From IMG/VR virus record IMGVR_UViG_3300028025_001316, positions 1-30,446 of that record: 30,446 nt of DNA, one strand, 5' to 3'. The notes below the pieces were generated by a model. That model did no database searches. It saw only the letters and a list, made by a program, of their open reading frames with translations, and was not told the origin of the DNA. This stretch comes from a virus. The number at the start of each line of letters is the position of its first letter. The first letter of the stretch is position 1. Of the stretch, positions 4,561-29,401 are shown piece after piece. A program made the translations under genes and the position numbers.

Positions 4561-7425
4561 TTAAACTGATGTTACCGTTTCCCAAGTTGCACCTGTAAAA
4601 ACAGATAATTTGTTCAATGTATTGTCATAAACAACAAGTCCCGTTGCAGGCGAAGCAATCGCATTTTTTTGCGTTGTGGTCATCCTTGGAGGCAGAAAGC
4701 CTTTTGTTGTGGAGTCTACAGTAAGAATTGAAGATGCTATATTAGTCGTAGTGTTTATTCCGATGTTTCCGTTGCTAAAAATCTGTAAACGATTAGAGCC
4801 AGCAGTATATAAAGCCAAATTTACAACTCCATTAACAAAAGCTAAATTTGTATCCCAACTAAGAATACCTCTGTTATTACCTGTTAAAGCACTACCCCAA
4901 TTTAATACGCCATCTGCTCTTAAAGCAATTCCACCAGCCCTAAGATTTAAATTAGTTACACCTGTAAAAGCACCATTAGTAAAGGTTGGATTTAAATCTA
5001 GTCCTACAAGCACATCGTTGTTAGCTGCTGCTACTAAAGTTGATGTAAGGTTAGCACCTCTAGCAATAGCAGATGCTGCCGTAGTCGAGCCTGTAATTGT
5101 TGTCACCCCCTGCACCCTAGCCGTACCATTCACATCCAAAGCAAAGCCTGAGTTCGTGTCAGTCCCTATTAACAAGTTTCCGTACCATCTGCCGTGAGTG
5201 GTAGATGAGTTGCCTAGCACAGTTGTGTTAGAGCCTAAGCCTGTTGCATTGTGACCAATGACTATTTGATTCGTTTGATTATCAGCATTTGCTCTAGTGT
5301 CAATGCCAATAAATATTGAATTATTCACAAGTGGAAGAGCATTTCCATTAGCAATTCTTCGACCTGCATCAAAACCTACAAAACAATTATTGGCTCCTGT
5401 GGTGCTAAAAAATCCAGCATTAGCACCAAAGAAAGAGTTAGATGCTCCTGTAGTATTTGAAAATCCTGAATTATGACCAAAGAAAGAGTTATTGCTTGCC
5501 GTTGTGTTATTCTGTCCTGAAGACTGACCAAAGAAAGAGTTAGATGAACCTGTTGAATTTACAAAACCTGAACCTTGTCCAAAGAAAGAACTGCCTCCTC
5601 CTGTTGTATTTGCTTGTCCTGAACCTTGTCCAAAGAAAGCATTAGAACCTCCTGTGGTGTTTGCTGCCCCTGAACTTACACCAAAGAAAGAATTGCTTCC
5701 TCCTGTTGTATTGTTTGCTCCAGAAGAATTACCAAAGAATGTATTATTTGGCCCCGTAGTATTATTTCTACCTGAATTTAACCCTATAAAAATATTTGTT
5801 GCTATACTGCTAATTCTTATCTGATTAGTAACTGTACCTGCACTATTGTTAAATGTAACTGATGCACTTGACGCAGAAATAGTGCGAATCGAAAGTACAA
5901 TCGTTCCATTGAAGTCAGATGTTGGAGTAATAACAAGAGTTCCTGTTGTGGTTGCTCTTGGCCCAAGATTCCCTGTTGCAGTCAATGCAGCGGATGTAAA
6001 GCCTCCAAAGGCAATTGTAAACGAACCTGCCGTTCTGCCTGTAACTGTGTAGGTAATTTGGTAGGATGCTCCAACCACTCCTGCAAGTGTGCTTGTCAAC
6101 GTAGTAGTAGACCCTGCCACATGCGTGTAGCCTGTCGCAAAATCAGTCCCTGTCCAAGATGCATCGCCTGTGCCTGTGGTTAGCAGTTCAGCACCTAGTT
6201 GACCTGAGTCGGAAGCCGTAGTTCCTTGGATGGTTGATAAGCCGTTGAAACGAGTTGAGCCGTTTACATCTAAGCGGAATCCTGCGTCGGTAAATGTGCC
6301 TCCTGCTTGAATTAATACATTACCTGAAGAAAAAACTCTTAACTTTTCGGTTTCAACTGTGCTTGCAGTTGTAACAAAACCTAGTGCAGTACTTGTCGAT
6401 GATTCTAAAGTAGAAAACACTTTAGATGACCTTCTATTACCTCCGTGTTCAAACGAAAGTGCCGTTTGGTCATTAACTGCTCCACCACCTGTATTATATA
6501 TTGTTAAATAGTCAAGATTTCCTGTGCTTGTTTGAGCCACTTCTAGCCTAGAACTTGGAGTAGTAATTCCAACACCTAGCCTACCATTAGTGTTATCCCA
6601 AAACAAGTTGTTCCCACCACCAATAGTATTCGCAGCAGTTCCAAACGCTACTTGACCTGTGGCGATTGTTCCTGAAACCCTAGCATTAATCTGACCTTGC
6701 GTCTTGTTAAATCCCTGCAAGATTGTGTCAGTAGCAAGTATAGTGCTATTCGCACCTGTGCTAAATCCAGTTAAAAGAGTAGATGTCCCAACCTGTGCAG
6801 CAGCAGCAGCCGAAGCAGCAGCGTTGTTTGCACTGGTCAAAGCATTACCTGCCTGAGTCGTAGCGATTCCTGCCTGTGTTGTAGCGATTCCCGCCTGTGT
6901 TGTAGCTATTCCAGCCTGAGTAGTTGCCGTGCTAGCAGAACCGCTTGCAGAGTTCTGAGAAGCCAATGCGTCATCAGCACTTGCCGAAGCCTCTCCAGCC
7001 TTAGTAGTTGCTATGCCTGCTTGTGTAGTTGCTATGCCTGCTTGTGTAGTCGCAGTAGTCGCAGCAGTTTGCGCAAGAATTCTGTCCGCATCCGCAGCTT
7101 GCTCACTAGCCAAAGCACTAGCAGCCGAAGCGCTAGCCTCGTTAGCTTTTGTCGTAGCTATTCCCGACTGGGTAGTAGCAATACCCGCTTGCGTGGTAGC
7201 AATCCCAGCTTGAGTCGTAGCAATACCAGCTTGAGCAGTTGCAATAGAAGCCTGAGCATTTGCGATGTCTGCTGATTCCTCAGCGTCAATGGCAGCTTCC
7301 TGAGCCTCTAAAGCAAACCTTTCAACTAATTCTGAATCGTAGTCTTTTACAAGAATTTCAACATTAGATGTCTCCGCAGTAACATCAATAATGGTTTCTA
7401 AGTTAATTACCTCTATCTGTCTCAT
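4561..7425 (-). CDS. Repeat-rich tail fibre protein with YadA-like head repeats
   Basis: A 954-aa fibre. Residues about 41-212 are an Ala/Thr-rich stalk with many IATTQAG heptads, probably a trimeric coiled coil. A NTNGRLGVGITTPSSRLEV-type segment and a DVNGSTRFNG segment follow. A strand-rich Ig-like region spans roughly 430-530. Residues 554-689 hold eight exact-length 17-residue repeats of the NTTGxxNxFFGxxSG type, like the left-handed beta-roll of YadA-type trimeric adhesins. The C-terminus (TGLVVYDNTLNKLSVFTG) resembles ends of other Bacteroidota surface fibres. There is no signal peptide, as expected for a virion protein. It probably contacts the host surface. Start overlaps the previous stop (ATGA). 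Confidence 0.82.
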   Translation of the reverse strand: MRQIEVINLETIIDVTAETSNVEILVKDYDSELVERFALEAQEAAIDAEESADIANAQASIATAQAGIATTQAGIATTQAGIATTQSGIATTKANEASASAASALASEQAADADRILAQTAATTATTQAGIATTQAGIATTKAGEASASADDALASQNSASGSASTATTQAGIATTQAGIATTQAGIATTQAGNALTSANNAAASAAAAAQVGTSTLLTGFSTGANSTILATDTILQGFNKTQGQINARVSGTIATGQVAFGTAANTIGGGNNLFWDNTNGRLGVGITTPSSRLEVAQTSTGNLDYLTIYNTGGGAVNDQTALSFEHGGNRRSSKVFSTLESSTSTALGFVTTASTVETEKLRVFSSGNVLIQAGGTFTDAGFRLDVNGSTRFNGLSTIQGTTASDSGQLGAELLTTGTGDASWTGTDFATGYTHVAGSTTTLTSTLAGVVGASYQITYTVTGRTAGSFTIAFGGFTSAALTATGNLGPRATTTGTLVITPTSDFNGTIVLSIRTISASSASVTFNNSAGTVTNQIRISSIATNIFIGLNSGRNNTTGPNNTFFGNSSGANNTTGGSNSFFGVSSGAANTTGGSNAFFGQGSGQANTTGGGSSFFGQGSGFVNSTGSSNSFFGQSSGQNNTTASNNSFFGHNSGFSNTTGASNSFFGANAGFFSTTGANNCFVGFDAGRRIANGNALPLVNNSIFIGIDTRANADNQTNQIVIGHNATGLGSNTTVLGNSSTTHGRWYGNLLIGTDTNSGFALDVNGTARVQGVTTITGSTTAASAIARGANLTSTLVAAANNDVLVGLDLNPTFTNGAFTGVTNLNLRAGGIALRADGVLNWGSALTGNNRGILSWDTNLAFVNGVVNLALYTAGSNRLQIFSNGNIGINTTTNIASSILTVDSTTKGFLPPRMTTTQKNAIASPATGLVVYDNTLNKLSVFTGATWETVTSV
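5359..5766 (-). repeat. Eight 51-bp repeats (17-aa YadA-like units)
   Basis: Eight consecutive units of exactly 17 codons encode NTTGxxNSFFGxxSGx variants within the fibre gene. The Phe-Phe-Gly and Ser-Gly positions are nearly invariant, and the last unit diverges (NNCFVGFDAGR). Each probably forms one turn of a trimeric beta-roll. Such repeats can change copy number by recombination. Confidence 0.85.
6790..7305 (-). repeat. Ala/Thr heptad stalk repeats (21-bp units)
   Basis: Three clusters of IATTQAG heptads (about five, three and four copies) separated by ASASAASALAS-like linkers make up residues about 41-212 of the fibre. At the DNA level the 21-bp units are close copies with varied third positions. 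They fit a long coiled-coil stalk whose length could drift by slippage or recombination. Confidence 0.8.
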
Positions 7426-17050: not shown

Positions 17051-17637
17051 GCGCCAAACCAATTGTAAGTTTTATAAGGCATTAACAATGCTTTTACTCC
17101 CAAAGGCGAAGGTATTGCTTGCAAGTCGCTAAAGTCTTCTCTGCGTTCGTAAAGCGTGTTTACCATCATTTTAACGGCAAGCTTTATGTCTTCGGGAACG
17201 GTTGTAAATCCAGCCGTATAAACCATCTTAAATTTAAACGATTGAGGACCGCTTGTAATTGCAATCTTTGGAAACAAGCCAACATTTAGTTGGTATTGTA
17301 AAGCAGTTTCTGCTCCATTTTGGTCAACAGTTACCACCTTGGAAACATCTGTTGACGAGACCAAAGGTCCGTAAGGCAACTGCCATTGGTAAGGAAAAGA
17401 GAAGGATTCAACAGTTACTGTCTTGCGAATAATTGCTTTGCCCATAAATGCCTCGCAATGTAGTCGAGCCACCTTTATTAGGCTGCTAATTAAAGTATCC
17501 TCAAAGGTTGAGTCAATCCTTGCATATTCTTTTGCCTCAGTTAAGCTAATTGGCTCGATTGCTGGAATCTCGTCCTCTAATTGGACAGAATAGCCAGTAA
17601 ATGAAAGGTTGCTAGGCGTGTATAATAAATCACTCAT
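17047..17637 (-). CDS. Head-tail connector protein (HK97 gp6-like)
   Basis: A 196-aa protein with EPISLTEAKEYARIDSTFED, then TLISSLIKVARLHCEAFMGK, a TVTVESFSFPYQWQLPYGPL strand region and TVPEDIKLAVKMMVNTLYERRED. The LxEAKxYxRID...DTLIxxLIxxARxxxExxxGK core and the P.DIK.AV..MV..LYE.RE helix are the gp6-like connector signature. It forms a ring beneath the portal. The ATG at 17637 (not the TTG at 17661) is chosen because it overlaps the glycosyltransferase stop by only 8 bp and fits the domain. Confidence 0.88.
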   Translation of the reverse strand: MSDLLYTPSNLSFTGYSVQLEDEIPAIEPISLTEAKEYARIDSTFEDTLISSLIKVARLHCEAFMGKAIIRKTVTVESFSFPYQWQLPYGPLVSSTDVSKVVTVDQNGAETALQYQLNVGLFPKIAITSGPQSFKFKMVYTAGFTTVPEDIKLAVKMMVNTLYERREDFSDLQAIPSPLGVKALLMPYKTYNWFGA

Positions 17638-18616
17638 CGTATGGTTTCTTTGCTTTGTCAACGATAAAATTAAAGAATCTTTCCAACTCTTGGTCTTGGT
17701 ATTTCAGCCGCTCCTCTGCAAGGTTTCGCATAATGTTTTGGTGAAAGTCATAAAGTATTTCATCTGTCATTAACTCCTCAATTTTTGCAGCCATACCGTC
17801 AATGTCTTCACGTTTAAAATACAATCCAGCAGAGCCAAGGCACTCCTTTAATCCGTCCGTAGGCGTGCAAATAACTGGCAGTCTATTAATAGCCGCCTCT
17901 AAGCCTACACGTCCGTAAGACTCGTAAGATGATGGCACAAGGACGATGTTTGTTTTGCCGTAAATCAAATGCACGTCGGGAGTTTGGGCAACATACTTTA
18001 GATTTTTTAAAGTGTCGTCCATGATTTGCTCGCCGTAGCTACCAAGCACTCCAAGAAATTTAAACTTTGGCAATCTTTTAGCAAGGTCAATTAAAATTTG
18101 CCCTCCTTTGTTTTGGTTGCAGTTAATTAGCGTAATGTATTGACCATGCTTGCGGTTGTACTTTACGTCATCGGGGAAAATAGGAGGTTTGCAAACAATA
18201 GAGGCATTTGGATAAGCGCCGTTTTGTAGGTTCTTTTCGTTTGCTTTATTGTTGTAAACTACGTGAATGTTTTGCGATTTAAATCTGACGTTTCTATAAT
18301 CTGAATCGTTGTGGCTTAAAAAAATTAGTTGCTTTTTGTACTTCATGCACCAATTTATTGCAACCCCAGTATTATCAAGGTGAGTAAATACAACGCTTGC
18401 AGTTTGCAAGGCTAGAAAAAAGTCGTTTGAATAATAGCCAGTTATAAATTTTATAAACTTAAACTTTTCACCATCAGGATAAATTTGCCCTTCAGGTAAA
18501 ATAACCTCAATGTTGCACCCTTTTTCGTTAAAATATTTGGCGTAATGCTGTACCGTCCACTCGGCTCCTGAGTTGTGCGTGCCTGCCCATGCGTGTACAA
18601 AAAAAACTATATTCAT
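17630..18616 (-). CDS. GT4-type glycosyltransferase within the head module
   Basis: A 328-aa GT-B-fold enzyme. The N-terminal domain opens MNIVFFVHAW with a NSGAE loop (15-19), and the C-terminal domain shows ITLINCNQNKGG (161-172), a VLVPSSYESYGRVGLEAA stretch (225-242) with the EX7E pair E232/E240, and PVICTPTDGLKECLGSAGLYF. This matches retaining family 4 transferases that move a sugar from a nucleotide-sugar donor. The acceptor is not shown: capsid, tail, host glycan or modified DNA are all possible. It lies between the capsid terminator and the connector gene, so it would be a late gene. No membrane segment is present. Confidence 0.85.
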   Translation of the reverse strand: MNIVFFVHAWAGTHNSGAEWTVQHYAKYFNEKGCNIEVILPEGQIYPDGEKFKFIKFITGYYSNDFFLALQTASVVFTHLDNTGVAINWCMKYKKQLIFLSHNDSDYRNVRFKSQNIHVVYNNKANEKNLQNGAYPNASIVCKPPIFPDDVKYNRKHGQYITLINCNQNKGGQILIDLAKRLPKFKFLGVLGSYGEQIMDDTLKNLKYVAQTPDVHLIYGKTNIVLVPSSYESYGRVGLEAAINRLPVICTPTDGLKECLGSAGLYFKREDIDGMAAKIEELMTDEILYDFHQNIMRNLAEERLKYQDQELERFFNFIVDKAKKPYDE

Positions 18617-20691: not shown

Positions 20692-21270
20692 TTATTGATA
20701 AATAAAATGAAAGGCTTTTGCTTCGCTTTCCTCAAATAAGCTTGTATAATTTTTATAACCTCCCTCAATGTCACTCTCACTTGGTCGTTGAAAAGAAAGG
20801 AAAGGCACGCAAATATAAGAGTTACCCTTAGGATGGACTATTGTCCTAAAATATTCGTCAATTGGTATGTCCAAATTTAATTCTGCCATTTCTTTAGCAA
20901 ATTTATAAGAATAAAGTATTCCATGGGTTGTCCAAGAGCCATAAGTGCGAACTAATCTCTTGCTTATTCTATCTAGCCTCATGTCTTTTATATTGGCTCC
21001 AAGCATAAGCATATCCCAATCAGTTGGCAAGTCATTCATGCAGTTAATTAGGTCGCTATAATTGCCTCGGTAAGTAGCGTCGTCCTCAAATATTAAAACG
21101 TCTCCTGTTGCTTGTGTAAATATTTGCTTAAATGTTTGCCACAATCCAAGCCATCCCCATTCGTGTTTAATTGCGCTTACTCTTTCAAGGTTAAAATGCG
21201 GTGCTAACTCTTGCATGGATTCAATCCATTTGTCTTTGCGGTGGTCAAGGTTAATAACGTGAGCAATCAT
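20692..21270 (-). CDS. GT25-like glycosyltransferase within the head module
   Basis: A 192-aa protein starting MIAHVINLDHRKDKWIESMQ, followed by ERVSAIKHEWGWLGLWQTFK, the DVLIFEDDAT motif (EDD at 62-64) and WDMLMLGANI. The VINLxxRxDKW opening and the LIFEDDA motif are hallmarks of family 25 (LPS/collagen-type) glycosyltransferases; the EDD acidic group probably binds the metal-nucleotide sugar. At 192 residues it is shorter than many GT25 enzymes but includes the core. The acceptor is unknown. It overlaps the morphogenesis gene stop as ATGA, so it is made together with head proteins. Confidence 0.8.
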   Translation of the reverse strand: MIAHVINLDHRKDKWIESMQELAPHFNLERVSAIKHEWGWLGLWQTFKQIFTQATGDVLIFEDDATYRGNYSDLINCMNDLPTDWDMLMLGANIKDMRLDRISKRLVRTYGSWTTHGILYSYKFAKEMAELNLDIPIDEYFRTIVHPKGNSYICVPFLSFQRPSESDIEGGYKNYTSLFEESEAKAFHFIYQ

Positions 21271-25025: not shown

Positions 25026-26126
25026 TTACAAAGTTACTCCGTTTTTTTTGATGACTAAAGCTGGGTCTAATTTACGCATCCTGTCTACTATCACTTGGCA
25101 GTACTTTGGGTCTAGTTCCATAACAAATGTTTTTATATTCATTTGCTCACCTGTTACCATTGTAACTCCACTTCCACCAAAAAAATCAGCCATTGTTTTA
25201 ATCTCTGATTTTGTTTTTTCAATGCACCACTTTACTAAAGAAACTGGTTTTTGAGTAGGGTGAACTCTGTTAGTTTTTTCGGATGCCTGAGTAAATTGTC
25301 TTACTACGCTTCTAATATTTGTCCAAGCCAATTCACAATCAGTTTGGTCAGAACCTCCATTATTTTTATCCCAAACTAACCAACATTCACTATCAGGTAA
25401 TGATGATGAGTAATAATTTGCTCCCCACCAAATATGATTTGATTTTGAAAACATTGAATAAATTAAATTAAATGAATCTCTTGCAACATCTGTGTTATCA
25501 TCGCCTAAAATATCATTTCCATATCTTTCTTTTAAAACTCCACTTTTACTGACAGCGTTCATTCCGTAAGGTGGGTCAGTATGAATTAAATTTGGCTCAG
25601 TTCCATTCATTAATAAATCAATACTTTTTGGGTCAACACTGCTTCCACAAAGCAAACGATGGTCTCCAATCTCAAATAAATCGCCAAGTACAATATCTGT
25701 TTGAATTTCGTCAGGTATTTCGTAATCATCCTCCTCAGCACTTAACTCTTCTTTAACTTCAAAGTCAGGAATATCCAAGCCCCAGTCTTGCAAATTATCA
25801 ACATCCCATTCGTTAGCCAATTGCTCCCAATCCCATTCACCAAATCCAACGTTGTCTTTAATTATAAATTGCTTCTGCTCGTCTTCTGTTAAGTCGTCTG
25901 CAAAAATGATTGTAACCTCTTTTAAACCCGCTTCTTTGCAAGCTTTTAGCCTCATGTTACCACCTAGCACAATCATGTCAGCATTTACAACAATAGGTCT
26001 AATTTCCAGCATTTTTGGAAACTCTTTAATTGACCTTACCAGCTTTGCAAACTTGTCATCCTTAATCAATCGTGGATTGTTAGGATTCATTTTGACTTCA
26101 GAAATTTTTACTTTTTGCGTTTTCAT
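25026..26126 (-). CDS. ParB-domain DNA methyltransferase (N6-adenine/N4-cytosine type)
   Basis: A 366-aa fusion. Residues 1-95 are a ParB/sulfiredoxin-like domain ([35 protein letters not shown]). The rest is a DNA methyltransferase with TDPPYG (catalytic DPPY at 184-187), HPTQKP (289-294) and FGGSG (316-320) followed by ELDPKYC. The DPPY-before-FxGxG order indicates the beta class. With no restriction enzyme gene nearby, it is an orphan enzyme likely protecting phage DNA from host restriction or marking DNA for packaging. Target site unknown. Codon use around 25250-25700 looks more AT-rich than in the neighbours. Overlaps the SAM methyltransferase stop (ATGA). Confidence 0.9.
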
Positions 26127-28035: not shown

Positions 28036-28665
28036 TTATATTAATTTATCTAAATCCTTTTTTTCTCTAATTGCCTGTAAAATAAACAATTTCCAAATTT
28101 TATTCTTTGTCTTGGCGCCAACGCTTACCTCGTCTACGTATCTAACCGTCAAGCGTAACTCTTTGCGCACGTCATTCTCCATCTCTTCTACGTTAAAGTC
28201 CCATGGCTTTAAAATTCCTTTTTCTTGAAACTTATTAAACCAGTTCATGCCCCATTCTGCAATGTCTCGGCAAAATCCTGTCTCCTTTGCATACTGGTAA
28301 TTATCCCGAAATATCTGCTTACCAACTTCAATCCAGTAGGCAATCTCTTCGTTGCTTGGCTCCTTTTCTTTGTTGTTTAAAGCTTGCACTTCCTGCACAA
28401 TTTGACTTTGGTGGTGCGCATAATACTGATTTATCCAAACGCTTACGGTCTTTTCGTTTACGTGATAAAAATCGCCGTATTGTCCTCGCATTCCAGCGTG
28501 CAAGATGTAGTCAACTCTTGCCTCAGTCATCCAGCCGTATCTTCCAAATAATTTACTGAGGCATCCAAGTAACTCGCTTGCCTCTTCTTTTTTGTATTCT
28601 TTAAACTGCTTCAGTCCGCATACAAACTCCATCTTTCGGAGGTGCGTTAAAATTATTTCATTCAT
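28036..28665 (-). CDS. Replication-module protein, function unknown
   Basis: A 209-aa mostly helical protein: LRKMEFVCGLKQFKEYKKEE, EASELLGCLSKLFGRYGWMT, VWINQYYAHHQSQIVQEVQA, EIAYWIEVGKQIFRDNYQYA. Aromatic-rich helices and no nucleotide-binding loop are seen. It lies directly after the replication initiator (8-bp overlap), a usual place for a helicase loader or DnaT-like partner in lambda-type systems, but the sequence does not prove this. An internal Met (residue 12) is a second possible start. Confidence 0.68.
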   Translation of the reverse strand: MNEIILTHLRKMEFVCGLKQFKEYKKEEASELLGCLSKLFGRYGWMTEARVDYILHAGMRGQYGDFYHVNEKTVSVWINQYYAHHQSQIVQEVQALNNKEKEPSNEEIAYWIEVGKQIFRDNYQYAKETGFCRDIAEWGMNWFNKFQEKGILKPWDFNVEEMENDVRKELRLTVRYVDEVSVGAKTKNKIWKLFILQAIREKKDLDKLI

Positions 28666-29401
28666 TGTTTAGGTGTTTTTGTTTTTGTAAATCCTCGTAA
28701 AGTTCGTCAAATACGTTTTTGCCTTTGCTTTCTTTTTTTGGTACTGGGTTGCCTCTTTTTACCCAATTAAAAAAATGCTCCTTGGCAAGCTTTTCGTTTT
28801 CTTTAAAATCAGCCTTTAAGATACATTCTTGCCTAAAGGTATTCAAATGGTTTTTAACTTCTGTTAAATCAGCTTTCCAGTTCATTGCTAATCCTTCAAG
28901 CCAAATGTTATTATTCCATAATTGACGAAAAATCGCATTATGTGAATCCTCATTTACTTTGATTTCTTTTTCTTTAATTTCTTTTACTTTACTTTCCTTT
29001 AATTGCATTGCATCCGCATTGCGTTCGCTATGCGTTCGCATTGCGTTCGCATCAATATCCCTATTCCAGCGTTTCTTGGCTGATTCTCTTGCTTTTTCTG
29101 AGCGCTCTTCCTTTAATTCCATACGCTTTAATAGGCTTTCAGACCAAAAATATTGGTCATCTAATTGGAATAAATCAAATTCATTAATAAGCTTTTTTAT
29201 GCAATCCTCATGCGTTTGCAATGCGAATGCAATGCCTTTGTAATGCGTTCGCATCCGAAAGTCGCTTTCGTTTCTAAGCATCTCAATAATTGCCCAAAAC
29301 AACCCATACCCCTCCCAACCCATTTCCATTCTTAGCTGGAGAATCTTTGGGTCATCTTTGGCATTTGAATCGTGGGAAAAATAATAAGCTTCTTTTTTCA
29401 T
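28658..29401 (-). CDS. Lin1244/DUF4373-type replication initiator with internal iterons
   Basis: A 247-aa protein. Residues 1-95 are the Lin1244/Lin1753 N-terminal domain (YYFSHDSNAKDDPKILQLRM, GYGLFWAIIEMLRNES, FWSESLLKRMELKEERS). A basic linker (SAKKRWNRDIDANAMRTHSE) and a C-terminal helical domain (AIFRQLWNNNIWLEGLAMNW, NTFRQECILK) follow. The family is associated with phage and plasmid replication initiation. The gene holds two arrays of four 11-bp iterons, so protein and origin seem to be nested, as in lambda O. Its ATG lies directly behind a terminator-like hairpin, so its expression may be attenuated. Confidence 0.85.
   Translation of the reverse strand: MKKEAYYFSHDSNAKDDPKILQLRMEMGWEGYGLFWAIIEMLRNESDFRMRTHYKGIAFALQTHEDCIKKLINEFDLFQLDDQYFWSESLLKRMELKEERSEKARESAKKRWNRDIDANAMRTHSERNADAMQLKESKVKEIKEKEIKVNEDSHNAIFRQLWNNNIWLEGLAMNWKADLTEVKNHLNTFRQECILKADFKENEKLAKEHFFNWVKRGNPVPKKESKGKNVFDELYEDLQKQKHLNNE
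29007..29050. repeat. Iteron array A: four 11-bp repeats
   Basis: Four head-to-tail 11-bp units at 29007-29017, 29018-29028, 29029-29039 and 29040-29050; consensus ATTGCGTTCGC, core TGCGTTCGCA. Unit one has CATCC for CGTTC. The period of 11 is not a multiple of three, so the repeat is not produced by a repeated peptide. It lies in the linker of the replication gene, next to an AT-rich pyrimidine tract. Confidence 0.85.
29210..29253. repeat. Iteron array B: four 11-bp repeats
   Basis: Four head-to-tail 11-bp units at 29210-29220, 29221-29231, 29232-29242 and 29243-29253: ATGCGTTTGCA, ATGCGAATGCA, ATGCCTTTGTA and ATGCGTTCGCA. The last is the consensus and is a near-palindrome (TGCG-TT-CGCA). 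The array lies 159 bp from array A in the same orientation and within the conserved N-terminal domain region of the replication gene. Confidence 0.8.

Follow-up and report, generated by a model that had tools for sequence, protein, structure and literature searches.

A probable replication origin nested in a phage initiator gene, with paired arrays of putative 11-bp iterons whose core co-varies with a basic helix of the encoded protein

The initiator gene of this virus very probably contains its own replication origin, with two arrays of 11-bp repeats acting as iterons bound by the protein that the gene encodes; neither binding nor replication data are available for this reading. Both arrays, together with an A+T-rich tract beside one of them, are constrained at the DNA level, the 11-bp period is found family-wide, and the core of the repeat co-varies with a basic helix of the protein. 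Binding, melting, helicase loading and origin firing are inferred.

Background

Replication origins remain unmapped in most phages known only from metagenomes, and two of the protein families met below, DUF1376 and DUF7833, are as yet catalogued without a function. Should the present reading be right, the sequence of any such phage would by itself place the origin to within tens of bases, a few residues would tell its specificity class, and natural switches would allow the link from initiator to iteron to be traced. One DNA would then have three readers, the ribosome, the initiator and the unwinding machinery, a case of overlapping codes that is open to experimental test and in which a change in the protein would force both arrays to change together. 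Nested origins as such are already known. Our search of the literature, in which few subscription journals were covered, found no report of paired 11-bp arrays, of the helix code described here or of an origin in Lin1244/DUF4373 or DUF1376 genes, and none of the listed papers containing TGCGAACGCA deals with phage replication.

Results

The initiator gene and its surroundings

The window, by which we mean the whole stretch of DNA analysed, is 30,446 bases long and is a complete entry of a virus collection rather than part of a host genome. Its initiator gene, the domains encoded therein and the downstream neighbour are located as follows.

28658 to 29401, minus strand: initiator gene, 247 aa, with Lin1244_N and DUF7833 domains
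29132 to 29383, minus strand: Lin1244_N codons (residues 7-90), predicted winged-helix-like fold, from profile match and AlphaFold2 model
28757 to 28924, minus strand: codons of the C-terminal DUF7833 (PF25200), residues 160-215, from profile match
28036 to 28665, minus strand: downstream gene, 209 aa, overlapping the initiator stop and conserved behind the initiator in close relatives

Residues 7-90 of the initiator match the Lin1244_N profile (PF14297) with an E-value of 2.9e-12 and 47.6 bits against a cut-off of 25, and the protein also matches PHROG 2562, 'replication initiation protein' (E 4.4e-25). Its function in replication is inferred from annotation, domain partners and neighbouring genes only. 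Neither PF04492 (Phage_rep_O) nor the DUF1376 profile (PF07120) finds a match in the initiator, and a sequence search of the PDB returned nothing relevant. In an AlphaFold2 model built from 58 sequences, the N-terminal domain is predicted with pLDDT values mostly of 92-98 from residue 21, a long helix spanning residues 88-120, which carries the putative recognition residues, is likewise confident, the linker encoded by array A and the adjoining tract is poorly ordered and the C-terminal domain is helical. Fold searches against the PDB with two models of the initiator gave weak matches of winged-helix type, none under E 0.2.

The C-terminal slot varies among relatives and is filled by DnaB_2 in EF62phi. 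A DnaB helicase or primase-helicase is encoded at or just behind the initiator in the relatives L209, L213, L233 and L055, and a DnaC/IstB-like loader occupies this place in L330, EF62phi and a Porphyromonas phage. The 209-aa downstream gene of the window has no convincing Pfam or PHROG family and no helicase-loader signature; by its position only, it is a possible candidate for an unrecognised helicase loader.

Several other genes of the window deserve mention in their own right. A probable tail protein of 954 aa (4561-7425, minus strand) contains 7-residue repeats (GIATTQA) near its N-terminus and 17-residue repeats (NTTGGSNSFFG-like) in mid-protein, while two genes that appear glycosyltransferase-like by eye (17630-18616 and 20692-21270, minus strand) lie within the virion structural block. 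Adjoining terminase-like genes, a further gene (25026-26126, minus strand) apparently fuses a ParB-like N-terminal part to a DNA methyltransferase with a DPPYG motif, again as judged by eye.

Two arrays of four 11-bp units

Inside the initiator gene lie two arrays of exactly four 11-bp units each, as an earlier note on this DNA had proposed.

29008 to 29051, plus strand: putative iteron array A, 4 x 11 bp, TTGCATCCGCA TTGCGTTCGCT ATGCGTTCGCA TTGCGTTCGCA, units starting at 29008, 29019, 29030 and 29041
29210 to 29253, plus strand: putative iteron array B, 4 x 11 bp, ATGCGTTTGCA ATGCGAATGCA ATGCCTTTGTA ATGCGTTCGCA, units starting at 29210, 29221, 29232 and 29243

The interval previously given for array B (29210-29253) needs no change, that for array A moves by one base (29008-29051, not 29007-29050) and the gap between the two, put at 159 bp, is 158 bp. 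Array A sits in codons of the poorly ordered linker (residues 117-132), and array B in codons of the N-terminal domain (residues 50-64), so that one array does fall within the conserved domain as had been claimed. The arrays are situated some way into the coding sequence, at about 150-190 and about 350-395 bases. For array A, Tandem Repeats Finder reports 4.4 copies over 29005-29052.

The common core that the units had been said to share is only partly realized: TGCGTTCGCA is exact in three of the eight units and has one mismatch in three more, the other two, A1 (TTGCATCCGCA) and B3 (ATGCCTTTGTA), being degenerate. The claim of a single orientation also requires qualification, as the core is near-palindromic (TGCG-NN-CGCA) and unit B2 (ATGCGAATGCA) is inverted. 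Sites that match TGCGTTCGCA with at most one mismatch number eight in the window, compared with a mean of 1.63 and a largest value of six in 100 shuffles, and no further arrays of this core were found in the 30,446-base record.

Selection on the DNA

As the null model for repetition, we generated 20,000 synonymous recodings of the same protein that follow the codon usage of the phage. At a lag of 11, array A matches itself at 27 of 33 positions against a recoded mean of 15.1 (z 5.0), and array B at 24 of 33 against 12.6 (z 4.6), values that were reached by none of the 20,000 recodings in either case. The argument put forward earlier, that a period out of phase with the codons cannot stem from a peptide repeat, is borne out by the loss of that period upon recoding. 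A test of the same kind on lambda gene O, used as a positive control, picked out lags of 44, 20 and 23 (z 4.9, 4.1 and 3.6), which match the annotated lambda iterons.

We compared codons at conserved amino acids in relatives of 66-100% identity. Arrays A and B each have an identical fraction of 0.905 and the adjoining tract one of 0.909, compared with 0.55, 0.62 and 0.66 for the remainder of the initiator gene; judged from these sequence comparisons, synonymous conservation at the three sites is a mark of selection on the DNA. The period itself was followed through 86 non-redundant relatives (under 70% identity, from Bacteroidota and Bacillota), in which the only periods above the synonymous null are 11 bp and its multiple 22, in the linker and the N-domain alike. 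Taken singly, 29 of the 86 exceed the null at lag 11 in the linker and 13 in the N-domain (p <= 0.005). Exact units are seen in all three codon phases across the family, and array B is degenerate in many relatives.

The tract beside array A

28950 to 29000, minus strand: A/G-rich tract on the coding strand with a period of about 5 bp, putative unwinding element, adjoining array A

On the coding strand, the units of this tract read AAAGG AAAGT AAAGT AAAAG AAATT AAAGA AAAAG AAATC AAAGT AAA and encode a Lys/Glu-rich stretch. The tract is the 50-mer of highest A+T content in its neighbourhood (0.82), shares first place in the window for purine/pyrimidine asymmetry and matches itself at lag 5 in 30 of 44 positions, compared with 19.9 in recoded proteins (p 0.0016). 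Codon choice in 133 relatives examined follows the same pattern: where the motif K-E-S/R-K is present, its first Lys codon is AAG in 70 of 85 cases, compared with 30% elsewhere (p 8e-23); Ser in the tract is encoded by AGT in 52 of 53. The T/C-rich AT stretch that the earlier note had seen next to array A is real (28950-29000 as read on the plus strand), conserved and constrained as DNA; its role in melting is inferred.

Co-variation of the repeat core with a basic helix

29063 to 29107, minus strand: codons of the putative DNA-recognition helix ERSEKARESAKKRWN, residues 99-113, from co-variation with the core and the confident model helix 88-120
29090 to 29092, minus strand: codon of Ala104, within the putative recognition helix
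29081 to 29083, minus strand: codon of Ser107, within the putative recognition helix

Across the family, the unit takes the general form TGCN-NN-NGCA. Alignment of homologous genes at the DNA level, which the earlier note had called for, reveals that both arrays are kept and that the unit differs between phages, with A and B of one gene changing together. Related genes without the repeat would have counted against the proposal, but those that lack the window's core (L051, L057-L060 and L065) have another one in A as well as in B. Family-wide, the core of A is correlated with that of B (Spearman 0.64, n=63); the cores do not rise with codon GC3, and base composition does not account for the correlation.

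The helix lies just in front of array A, and the variable bases of the unit follow residues 103, 104 and 107: Lys-Ala..Ser at these positions pairs with TGCG..CGCA, and Arg (or Met) together with Ala107 pairs with TGCA..TGCA. Of 114 columns in the N-domain, that of residue 104 is the best predictor of the core (z 24.5, the next being 12.7). G or C stands at the outer centre of the unit in 61 of 63 representatives with Ala104 but in 0 of 15 with Arg or Met104 (Fisher 3e-14). Base composition was ruled out as the cause of the Ala/Arg difference, codon GC3 being similar and slightly higher in the Arg class. Two natural pairs, L051/L028 and L071/L058, have N-domains that are 94-98% identical and C parts that are 84-92% identical, and differ in the helix (KMREAA versus KARESA or KARQSA) and in both arrays. 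Specificity thus follows the helix; the C-terminal domain is ruled out as its determinant, because C parts that are nearly identical can accompany different iterons.

The association was also approached in reverse, starting from the DNA. When the viral collection was scanned for TGCGTTCGC double units, before the residue rule had been seen, 120 loci came up, in 111 of which the double unit lies within 130 nt behind the helix motif; after thinning, TGCG-type arrays are accompanied by Ala104 and Ser/Asn107 in 48 of 53 cases and by Arg at 103/104 in one of 53. A second scan, for TGCATTTGC double units, was run to test the rule and left 15 TGCA-type cases after thinning, none with Ala104 and Ser/Asn107, 13 with Arg at 103/104 and 14 with Ala107. 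In its first form (Arg104) the rule is met in 10 of these 15, the others having Arg103-Ala104, Met or Leu. The rule came from a subset of the data and was widened later, with position 107 and the Arg103 option as post hoc additions. On the best tree, which is weakly resolved, 11-13 independent pairs agree with the co-variation and none disagrees, only about two of them standing on well-supported branches. Relatives from Chishuiella and Poseidonibacter (L278, L281) have 11-bp units with other palindromic cores, AACGGTCGTTG and AACGGACGTTC, and a helix outside the Ala/Arg rule.

DUF1376 genes and further carriers

Lin1244_N-like genes account for 67 of the 120 TGCGTTCGC loci. Many others, found among L082-L201, are in genes of DUF1376 type, for example L101 (3653-4456; the one checked, PF07120), L106 and L192. 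Like the gene of the window, these genes for DUF1376/YdaU-like 'primosomal' proteins (PF07120) have TGCGAACGCA units, a K-A..S-A...R-W helix just before the array and a short-period tract directly behind it; unlike it, they belong to another Pfam family and their tract has a period of about 6-7 bp (AACCAAT-, ACCAGAC- or CCCAAT-like) instead of AAAGN. The modelled fold of the initiator resembles those of predicted viral DUF1376 proteins and of replisome organizers, with the DUF1376 match at E 7e-4, and on the strength of these modelled folds the Lin1244_N and DUF1376 families are probably distant relatives.

In coliphage mEp515, gp16 (L525:2995-4050; PF14297) has an array of GGTCATGA type with a period of 11 bp (z 4.1) and, behind it, a 6-bp GAATTA tract; it is a tractable test case in E. 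coli K-12. A closed circular Crassaminicella plasmid of 36.6 kb, pCT01, has the gene with both arrays and the AAAGN tract (L612:3001-3906). Given that pCT01 carries the system and that EF62phi-like elements are listed among plasmids, the Lin1244_N initiator and its arrays may run phage-plasmids. The Rac prophage of E. coli K-12 has a known active origin, oriJ (PMC3945230). Its ydaU gene (L609:6120-6977; DUF1376, PHROG primosomal / O-like) has repeats resembling TGTTCAAACA, several of them about 11 or 33 bp apart, and gave in the recoding test a best lag of 23 (z 4.2), with TGTT-NN-AACA-like motifs that are unlike the motif of the window.

Discussion

In the mechanism that we propose, the encoded protein would bind arrays A and B, most likely by way of the basic helix at residues 99-113, which follows the winged-helix-like N-terminal domain and would read TGCG half-sites in the Ala104/Ser107 type or TGCA half-sites in the Arg or Met type. 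With one helical turn per unit, a nucleoprotein complex could form and melt the strand-asymmetric, A+T-rich tract that flanks array A, whereupon the C-terminal domain would bring in a helicase loader or helicase. The binding step, in the form most likely here, is supported by co-variation, and the opening and helicase-loading steps, as the most likely course, by analogy with lambda and SPP1. For no member of the family did we find an experiment on binding, footprinting, melting or replication. GC skew marks no origin and is uninformative, because it falls steadily along the record with nearly all genes on one strand.

Could the arrays be operators only, by which the protein represses or tunes its own operon, with the origin elsewhere? 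This is the main rival, for the co-variation of site and protein demonstrates binding specificity and not replication, and autoregulation is frequent among iteron proteins. We nevertheless regard it as improbable: the arrays lie inside the coding sequence and not at a promoter, a DNA-constrained A+T-rich tract accompanies array A across the family, and the PHROG name is one of replication initiation, with a DnaB_2 domain and helicase-related neighbours recurring. A smaller chance still attaches to the idea that the repeats serve a host factor (DnaA-like or a nucleoid protein) or packaging and are merely housed in the initiator gene. Such sites can occupy coding DNA too, but the unit here follows residues 103/104/107 of the encoded protein, close pairs included, and in the viral collection the double unit keeps close behind the helix motif in 111 of 120 loci.

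Virtually no weight can be given to the view that the repeats merely reflect a peptide linker of repetitive or low-complexity sequence. Array A does encode a low-confidence linker, and the tract a stretch rich in Lys and Glu; however, neither 11 bp nor 5 bp is divisible by 3, and array B lies in a folded domain. A peptide repeat as the source is ruled out by the recoding test, in which the same protein is kept and the repeats are abolished, by conservation of synonymous sites at precisely these places and by the occurrence of exact units in all three codon phases.

Beyond the nested origin itself, which is the reading that we prefer, the repeats and a few protein residues that change together across hundreds of relatives suggest, as far as sequences can tell, a simple read-out code for phage origins. 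A bolder claim, which we advance tentatively and hold to have somewhat less than an even chance, is that Lin1244_N and DUF1376 genes form one widespread class of origin, in which paired TGCR half-sites are recognized by one basic helix through a short residue code at 103/104/107 and in which the family-specific tract of 5, 6 or 7 bp is itself read as sequence, for example in single-stranded form, like DnaA trios. The reading helix of this joint class would lie outside the usual winged-helix recognition helix. If such a class exists, the origins of very many uncultured phages would be readable from sequence, and phages and phage-plasmids that compete for the same origin would be predictable in the same way.

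Comparison with known origins

The initiators of the iteron plasmids P1, F, RK2, pSC101 and R6K belong to families different from that of the Lin1244_N initiator. These plasmids have initiator-specific direct repeats, phased with the helix and beside an A+T-rich region (PMC5043065); unlike the arrays of the window, the repeats are not described in that source as lying inside the initiator coding sequence. Closer in arrangement are SPP1 oriL (gene 38) and 80alpha ORF20, in which direct repeats and an A+T-rich unwinding element lie within a replisome-organizer gene that adjoins the helicase loader (PMC6316719, PMC5499656). The product of the latter, 80alpha gp20, differs in having Phg_2220_C and not Lin1244_N, and no 11-bp array appears in its gene in the same recoding test.

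The label 'lambda-type', which the earlier note had applied, is apt for the mode of working and not for kinship. Lambda O belongs to PF04492 and its iterons are inverted repeats of 18-19 bp, bound by O dimers at a spacing of 20-24 bp in one cluster, whereas the initiator of the window belongs to PF14297, lacks a Phage_rep_O domain and has 11-bp units in two clusters. In lambda an A+T-rich opening region adjoins the iterons (PMC5043065). The lambda origin, like the one proposed here, lies inside the initiator gene, O, and the first of its four iterons begins near codon 117 of O; array A likewise starts at codon 117 of the window's initiator.
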